A DNA stretch of 24,762 nucleotides from a virus. The notes below the pieces were generated by a model. The model made no database searches. It was given only the letters and a program-made list of their open reading frames with translations, and had not been told where the DNA came from. The DNA lies in IMG/VR virus record IMGVR_UViG_3300045738_001183, positions 1 through 24,762 of that record; one strand, given 5' to 3'. Positions 5,864 through 7,314 of the stretch are shown here, in pieces (position 1 is the first letter of the stretch; every line of letters begins with the position of its first letter). The translations under genes and the position numbers were made by a program.

Positions 5864-6406
5864 ATGGAAGTGATAAATGCTCTACGAGATCAAGTAGACG
5901 AATACAAAGAAATTTTCGGTCTGCTACCCATTGGCCTGTATCGCACGTCTATTGAAGATGGCACCTTTCTAAAGGCCAACGAATATTGTGCCAAAATGTT
6001 CGGCTACAATTCTGTTGATAAATTCATGGTGGAAGTCAAGGCTCCAGAACTATACGTCAATTCTAAAGTTCGGAAACGATTTATATATGAATTGATGAAA
6101 AATGGCGTAATAGAAAATTATGAATTGAAACTCAATTTGCCCAAAAGTTGCCTATGCAATAATACTTGTAAGGCTGGGGACATAGTGTGGGTTGCTATTA
6201 CAGCGATGCTGAATAGAGAAGAAGGCTGGCTTCAAGGTTCAATGATGTGTATTTCTGATAGAAAGCTCATGGAAATAAAATTGAACAAATTCCAGGAACA
6301 AGAGACAGCTTCGCTCAAGGTTATTACAGAAGCCGCTAAGATACGATCAACAGAAATACACAATTCTAATGGCAATGGATTTATACCAAAGGAGCTTGCC
6401 GGATGA
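5864..6406 (+). CDS. Stand-alone PAS-domain protein
   Basis: 180 aa with GAGGGAGA upstream. Residues about 16-138 form a PAS domain. The core pieces are LPIGLYRTSIEDGTFLKANE (21-40) and AKMFGY (43-48), then the helix VRKRFIYELMKNG. The final strands are EWxxx-like VWVAITAMLN and WLQGSMMCISDRKLMEIKL. An insertion at 93-106 contains three cysteines (C96, C98, C102), unusual for PAS. The remaining C-terminal 40 residues are a polar helix. There is no kinase, cyclase or DNA-binding domain, so it would sense a ligand or bind a partner. Its stop overlaps the start of the exported protease gene (ATGA), so the two are made together. A PAS protein of this type in a phage is uncommon; its signal is unknown. 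Confidence 0.75.
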   Translation: MEVINALRDQVDEYKEIFGLLPIGLYRTSIEDGTFLKANEYCAKMFGYNSVDKFMVEVKAPELYVNSKVRKRFIYELMKNGVIENYELKLNLPKSCLCNNTCKAGDIVWVAITAMLNREEGWLQGSMMCISDRKLMEIKLNKFQEQETASLKVITEAAKIRSTEIHNSNGNGFIPKELAG

Positions 6407-7314
6407 AATGTTTATTACATGGATTTCTTGTGGCAGGGTTAGCGATTGCTATTATTTTTTCTGGCATCAATGCTGCTCAGGCATCACCAACAAAAGTCAA
6501 AATAGAGACTACTCATCGAACTGGCAGCCACATAGGAAGGGTGCGAGTAAATGGCGGTGTAGTTAGGTTGTTGGTGCTCAAACATTGCTATGAAGAGGTG
6601 GCCGATGACGAAGAGCGTGAAATTTTTCAAGCTGCTGAACTTGCAGCTACAAAAGGGTTGGAAATTAAGGATATAGGTGGGTTCCACATTGATCGAGATG
6701 GCCATGCTCCTCGCCTTGTTTGGAGCAAAAAATGCACCTTGAGTAATTTGAAGGCATTCATTAGTCAACAAATGAAAGTGGCTGCGGTTGCAGGAGATAC
6801 TCTGTTAATTTACACCACAGGTCATGGAAGTAGTGATGGCGATATGGATTTGCTAGGGCAACGTAAGAACATTATGAAGATATTAGCCGAGGCAGCAGAG
6901 GAAAACAATCAAGAAACACTGTGGTGGCAATCTAGTTGTTATGCTGCCGCTGGACTTCCATCTATTTCTATTCTAAACGAAAGACAACAAGAATTGTTGT
7001 CCATGATTGCTAGTTCTTCTGCTGATCTTCAAAGTTATTGGGGCGATCAAACAGAGCCAATGCTAAGAGTTTTTGTAGCAATGGCAGAGAAAGACCCGTC
7101 ATTGGATGCTAATCAGGATGGTGAAATTACATCTGGAGAGCTATCTGCATTTCTAAATAAAGTGAAGAGCGGATCGGGAAACTTGGTATTTTCCAAGAGT
7201 CCTGATGAACCAATATTTGGCTTGATTGGCCCTTGGAGTTTGCCAATTATTGATCGCAACAATAATCAAAGCATGTATAAGAGAGGATACATTCCGACCC
7301 CCTTGCCTATTTGA
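6403..7314 (+). CDS. Exported caspase-like (clan CD) protease with EF-hand
   Basis: 303 aa. Residues 1-27 are a signal peptide: short positive start, hydrophobic core, then AQA before S28. The peptidase part shows the clan CD layout. LLIYTTGHGSSDGD has catalytic-type H141-G142, and ETLWWQSSCYAAAGL has C179 after a hydrophobic strand. Legumain, gingipain and caspase relatives have the same HG and (A/S)C pairs. Residues 235-246 (DANQDGEITSGE) are a perfect 12-residue EF-hand calcium loop, with D235, N237, D239 and E246 as ligands. Calcium may control activity, as in some metacaspases. It overlaps the PAS gene by 4 bases and the M14 carboxypeptidase gene by 8 bases tail to tail. Its role in the phage is unknown; cutting an envelope or surface protein is inference. 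Confidence 0.65.
   Translation: MKCLLHGFLVAGLAIAIIFSGINAAQASPTKVKIETTHRTGSHIGRVRVNGGVVRLLVLKHCYEEVADDEEREIFQAAELAATKGLEIKDIGGFHIDRDGHAPRLVWSKKCTLSNLKAFISQQMKVAAVAGDTLLIYTTGHGSSDGDMDLLGQRKNIMKILAEAAEENNQETLWWQSSCYAAAGLPSISILNERQQELLSMIASSSADLQSYWGDQTEPMLRVFVAMAEKDPSLDANQDGEITSGELSAFLNKVKSGSGNLVFSKSPDEPIFGLIGPWSLPIIDRNNNQSMYKRGYIPTPLPI

Follow-up and report, generated by a model that had tools for sequence, protein, structure and literature searches.

A predicted exported caspase-like protein of a probable jumbo myophage, and a C-terminal tail that it has in common with other exported protease-like proteins

The stretch of DNA analysed here (the window, 24,762 bases of an IMG/VR virus record) contains a gene for a PAS protein (180 aa) that overlaps by ATGA, as originally noted, a gene for a 303-aa protein with a caspase-like predicted fold. 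The features of this region are listed below, with the homologous positions in two related phage records, G002 (62 kb) and G004 (533 kb).

5331-5708, + strand: conserved left flank of the accessory-gene site, with homologues at G002:4979-5398 and G004:416455-416988.
5864-6406, + strand: stand-alone PAS protein (180 aa) that carries a Cys-rich insertion, read as a separate accessory gene (sub-cut-off Pfam PAS matches, orthologue in G004).
6403-7314, + strand: predicted exported clan CD (caspase/legumain-fold) protein, 303 aa (10-sequence alignment, AF2 model, Foldseek, VIA).
6403-6486, + strand: signal-peptide-like N-terminus, residues 1-28 (hydrophobic N-terminus in 11/11 intact members).
6823-6825, + strand: predicted catalytic His141, in a GHG motif after predicted strand 133-139 (invariance in alignment A4, model DSSP).
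6937-6939, + strand: predicted catalytic Cys179, in a WWQSSC motif after predicted strand 171-177 (invariance in alignment A4, model DSSP).
7105-7140, + strand: EF-hand-type calcium loop DANQDGEITSGE, residues 235-246 (loop pattern, 9/11 intact members).
7240-7311, + strand: C-terminal tail, residues 280-303 (tail profile matches and controls).
7307-8278, - strand: M14 zinc carboxypeptidase with a hydrophobic N-terminus, a convergent neighbour with no tail (PF00246, E 3.1e-29).
8287-9246, - strand: conserved right flank, glycosyltransferase plus TPR, with homologues at G002:4054-4998 and G004:415040-416017.

The window also encodes T4-type tail genes (baseplate, two tail tubes, sheath and sheath stabiliser). 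No near match to it was found among 50,697 phage records, and its sheath protein is less than 60% identical to every one of 2585 matching records. Both G004, at 405-424 kb, and G002, at its end, are collinear with the window, which we therefore consider part of a large myophage, probably a jumbo phage. Two further genes of the window may be mentioned. The one at 10298-10861 (+) encodes a Sigma-70 region 2 protein (PF04542, E 1.3e-7), a possible late sigma factor, and is conserved in both G002 and G004. The other, a sulfotransferase-family gene at 11705-12718 (-) (PF13469, E 4.6e-14), lies between two tail-tube genes; its neighbours are collinear in the two records, where the gene itself has no homologue.

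Scans of viral contigs showed that relatives of the caspase-like protein are encoded in at least 11 further IMG/VR phage records, which range in length from 8 to 533 kb, with four above 100 kb (134, 340, 436 and 533 kb). This count is a lower bound, because the equivalent scan with the PAS protein missed an orthologue that a local phmmer search found in G004. After removal of duplicates (L004, L018 and L164, which duplicate L003, L002 and L005), ten sequences were aligned (alignment A4), leaving out a broken gene, L172, and a member found later, L173. The ORF is intact in 11 of the 12 records, window included. The broken copy (G010:313700-314386) has lost its N-terminus and carries in-frame TAG and TAA codons. 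Searches with tblastn of the 50,697 phage records gave nothing, either for the window protein or for a diverged member from G011; the window protein gave nothing in plasmids, and two genome-contig scans detected no cellular relative, although these rely on short conserved peptides and may have missed distant ones.

The original prediction had described H141-G142 and C179 in the arrangement typical of clan CD. Both residues are present at these positions and are invariant in the 10 aligned homologues, inside GHG and WWQ.SC blocks that are among the most conserved residues of the alignment (10/10 members). The eleventh intact member keeps both as well, so that the pair is found in 11 of 11 intact copies, always with a spacing of 38-39 residues. 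For the fold, a model obtained with AF2 from 10 homologues was used (pLDDT 70.1, pTM 0.69, most of the core at 80-90), since only 36.8 of pLDDT was reached from 3 sequences. In this model the strands 133-139 and 171-177 end just before H141 and C179, which is the clan CD order. A Foldseek search of solved structures returned legumain first (E 5e-6), with caspase-7 at E 5e-5. The corresponding VIA-align Z scores, in which differences below 1 are ties, were 13.8 for legumain (190 residues, 3.8 A), 13.6 for GPI transamidase subunit K, 13.1 for caspase-7 and 12.9 for metacaspase-4. These alignments cover 175-190 residues, spanning positions 50-274, and the best 50 rows (Z 12.5-13.8) are all legumain, GPI-transamidase, caspase, paracaspase or metacaspase entries by title. 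In a viral structure library the top matches are giant-virus caspase-domain proteins, and an uncharacterised phage protein from Myoviridae sp. ctWaE18 ranks seventh. The claim of a caspase-like fold thus holds for the structure predicted from 6403-7314, and neither of the two outcomes named beforehand as refuting it, a fold unlike that of caspases or loss of H141/C179 in homologues, was observed.

Profile searches, proposed as a check on the same claim, did not give the peptidase family. The C14 profile (PF00656) matched 0 of 4 records at E <= 10 and was also absent among the matches of seven members of alignment A3 and of three further members, while the C13 profile (PF01650) reached no more than E 0.16, below the cut-off, in a single member out of 7. 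Because these profiles fail or fall far below the cut-off, the protein is placed in clan CD without a family, with a caspase/legumain-type fold as judged from the model. We regard the clan CD fold as very probable and an active protease as probable. A catalytically dead clan CD scaffold with a binding or exclusion role in the envelope would be compatible with a sequence so far from the known C14 and C13 families, but is improbable given that H141, C179 and the GHG and WWQxSC residues that surround them rank among the best conserved positions in 10/10 members.

Export had also been predicted, and the N-terminus is of the signal-peptide type (mean Kyte-Doolittle value of 2.61 over the best 15 residues). 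A hydrophobic, export-type N-terminus is found in all 11 intact members, two of them with a lipobox-like cysteine; export of the protein is likely. The perfect EF-hand loop of the original prediction is indeed found at 7105-7140, and the pattern D-x-[DN]-x-[DN]-x-x-[IVL]-x-x-x-E occurs in 9 of the 11 intact members, window included, being degenerate in the other two. The Pfam EF-hand model, which describes the full helix-loop-helix, stays below its cut-off in the window protein (15.6 bits vs 25.9).

The caspase-like protein and its PAS neighbour had been proposed to form a two-part system that would sense a cue and act on the cell envelope or on other proteins. As to the PAS protein itself, the three-Cys insertion is present in the window, whereas the Pfam PAS matches remain below cut-off (PAS_8, E 0.008, 16.5 bits vs 21.8; PAS_9, E 0.02). 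It has one orthologue, in G004 at 415989-416459 (E 1.7e-19 by local phmmer), from which the insertion is missing. Neither tblastn of the 50,697 phage records nor the single-protein scan of viral contigs found any PAS relative, the latter in spite of the G004 orthologue.

The ATGA overlap makes a translational unit likely in the window, but a search for the same gene pair in other phages went against the proposal: the pair occurs in the window only, 1 of 12 records, and none of the other 11 was seen to have a PAS gene adjoining the caspase-like gene. G004 carries the PAS orthologue alone at the collinear site, flanked on one side by the homologue of 5331-5708 and on the other by that of the glycosyltransferase gene 8287-9246; its caspase-like gene lies about 103 kb away, at 519,584-520,669. 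Nothing separates the two flanking genes in G002, whose caspase-like gene is elsewhere, at 41.6 kb. Further, the PAS protein has no export signal and the caspase-like protein has one, so the two probably reside in different compartments. A two-part signalling system thus seems very unlikely, and the pair was dropped as a system on the synteny in G004 and G002. From that synteny, the PAS gene and the caspase-like/M14 pair are read as separate accessory genes sharing one site.

A late-type promoter had been postulated upstream of the pair. The motif CTAAATA at 5814-5820, possibly the one meant, occurs 6 times in the window against a shuffle mean of 4.4, and TATAAATA occurs once, at another place; these counts are not distinguishable from chance, and the promoter was discarded as evidence. 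An all-versus-all comparison of the ORFs within 5 kb of the caspase-like genes revealed no widely shared neighbour family: only G008 and G009, which are close relatives, had many matches with each other, and three other pairs had a few. Near the caspase-like gene of G008 and G009 are ORFs (L170:9018-9356 and L171:9030-9368) that by eye resemble the ClpS adaptor.

When the family profile was run against the 12 records, the only matches beyond the family were to the last ~25 residues of two proteins of the Trypsin_2 type, one in G011 and one in G004. Both have export-type N-termini and match PF13365 (E 3e-9 and 3e-5, the second below the Pfam cut-off); the triad H, D, S is conserved between them, and it is in the tail that their meaningful alignments with caspase-like proteins fall. 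A profile trained only on 10 caspase-family tails was then run on the 7801 C-termini of the 12 records. It matched the two trypsin-like proteins (G011, E 3.9e-12; G004, E 7.1e-12) and, more weakly, a G004 protein with an export-type N-terminus and papain-like features (E 9.4e-4), the next best match being at E 0.06. As controls, 6284 C-termini from other viral loci gave a best E of 2.9, and 39,005 shuffled C-termini a best score of 10.2 bits, versus 44.5, 43.7 and 17.7 for the real ones. Bearers of the tail outside the caspase-like family are thus three proteins in the 12 records searched, all in G004 and G011.

The third bearer shows a papain/C39-like arrangement, with C91, H171 and D192 common to an untailed relative in G007. 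It has no Pfam match, and the G007 relative matches Peptidase_C39_2 only at E 0.04, so the enzyme type, papain-like, is tentative. A tblastn search of the 50,697 phage records with the G004 trypsin-like and papain-like proteins, or with a composite of the tail, gave nothing.

Within the caspase-like family the tail is conserved, with a mean identity of 46%, close to the 49% of the catalytic domain and well over the 24% of the linker that follows the signal peptide. It is about 25 residues long, carries D/R/N residues (with a conserved D-R-N-G) and then a second conserved block, and is not followed by a hydrophobic helix; the NCBIfam scans listed no sorting-signal model, and the tails were otherwise read by eye. 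That exported protease-like proteins have this tail in common suggests that the phage may send them to one place. We put this role of address signal forward tentatively. The prodomain of legumain is C-terminal, and a tail in the same position that is poorly ordered in the model (block mean pLDDT of 37 to 56 from residue 271) could instead be an inhibitory or maturation pro-segment; this is unlikely, as the tail is found on unrelated catalytic folds, which one inhibitor peptide would hardly fit.

Clan CD also contains peptidases and transpeptidases of C-terminal signals, namely GPI8/PIG-K and PorU, and the caspase-like protein might likewise cut or re-link the tail on itself and on others, D-R-N-G being the cut site. 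GPI transamidase subunit K and legumain/peptide ligases are among its best structural neighbours, all three tailed families coexist in G004, and the D/R/N residues of the tail precede the second conserved block. We nevertheless find a role centred on tail processing unlikely, since the Z scores separate these neighbours from ordinary proteases by less than 1, a tie, and since in G009 (340 kb) and G010 (436 kb), both large records, the tail profile found no other tailed protein, so that no substrate besides the caspase-like protein is visible there.

A second, different tail, resembling K-K-Y-R-S-I-D-D-P-W-E, ends 12 ORFs of G004 and one of G009 (examples are L165:11796-12763, beside the G004 caspase-like gene, and G009:89753-90022). 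Several of these ORFs are short fragments of structural genes, including pieces of capsid genes and of a prohead protease; the capsid pieces share about 77% identity with the capsid protein of the phage itself and 79-88% with another record's capsid protein. Some of the ORFs follow one another and are accompanied by a 42-nt direct repeat, which gives them a cassette-like look. ORFs of 93-95 aa at G008:40979-41257 and G009:124932-125216 resemble the N-terminal part of a major capsid protein and are 61-73% identical to a G004 fragment.

Other exported peptidase-like proteins accompany the tailed ones. The M14 carboxypeptidase of the window has a homologue in G004 at 329 kb, 1.1 kb from the tailed papain-like gene. 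G004 also encodes an M28 protein (PF04389, E 2.9e-41), along with two more Trypsin_2 proteins; these and its M14 protein have hydrophobic N-termini and no tail. No M14 or M28 protein was found in the other ten related records, most of them fragments, and among those ten Trypsin_2 was found in G011 only. Since the M14 and M28 proteins, two of the three G004 trypsin-like proteins and the G007 papain-like relative are untailed, exported phage peptidases can do without the tail.

Taken together, we favour, at a probability of roughly 0.55, an exported clan CD cysteine endopeptidase that is accessory cargo of uncultured jumbo myophages, directed by its tail and independent of the PAS protein. The most likely setting is a set of exported peptidases, targeted by the tail, that act on proteins of the envelope or surface. 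In such a setting the host would export the protein by the Sec pathway, the protein would bind Ca2+ outside the cytoplasm, and it would cleave proteins of the host envelope or surface in the course of infection, for instance stripping receptors or helping release. The tail would bring it to a place or partner common to all the tailed peptidase-like proteins, beside which, in G004, the exported M14 and M28 exopeptidases would finish digestion, and the adjoining PAS gene would be an independent accessory gene. That envelope or surface proteins are the target is a tentative proposal. Equally conjectural is the broader notion that jumbo phages use a C-terminal address tag of their own, by which caspase-, trypsin- and papain-like endopeptidases would be brought to one extracytoplasmic site, to work there with untailed M14/M28 enzymes; on this view the caspase-like protein may process the tag as well. 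If true, the tailed endopeptidases and untailed exopeptidases would amount to a phage-made proteolytic system, and a caspase-fold enzyme that is exported and bears a common tail would make extracytoplasmic proteolysis part of jumbo phage biology.

Most discussion of phage peptidases concerns capsid maturation or enzymes aimed at cytoplasmic host proteins. In PMC7824862, the peptidases of jumbo phages figure as enzymes of virion maturation or as directed against host proteins. The word caspase is absent, by term search, from PMC7824862, PMC13282480, PMC7162821 and PMC13037316, and the literature searched, whose scope excluded most subscription papers and bioRxiv preprints, gave no description of an exported caspase-fold phage protease with such a tail.

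Among known systems, the C-terminal sorting signals LPXTG, PEP-CTERM and T9SS CTD are, like the phage tail, short C-terminal blocks on otherwise unrelated exported proteins, but the phage tail lacks a following hydrophobic helix, spans about 25 residues and has three non-family bearers in 12 records. The secreted C11 peptidase 'iotapain' of Bacteroides (6nag) is, similarly, an exported bacterial clan CD peptidase (Foldseek E 7e-4), although it is longer (350 aa) and only about 10% identical. Caspases, metacaspases and orthocaspases (C14) resemble the phage protein in fold (Z 13.1 for caspase-7, 12.9 for metacaspase-4) and in the HG...QxSC dyad, and the metacaspase p10 region holds acidic, calcium-binding loop residues according to PMC5756287; the phage protein differs in having no PF00656 match, in being exported and in being encoded by a jumbo phage. 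Finally, legumain (C13, clan CD) has the same fold over 190 residues (Z 13.8), the same His-Gly/Cys motif order and a secreted or exported character, while its identity to the phage protein is about 13%, and the phage protein has no legumain prodomain and does have an EF-hand-type loop and a short tail.
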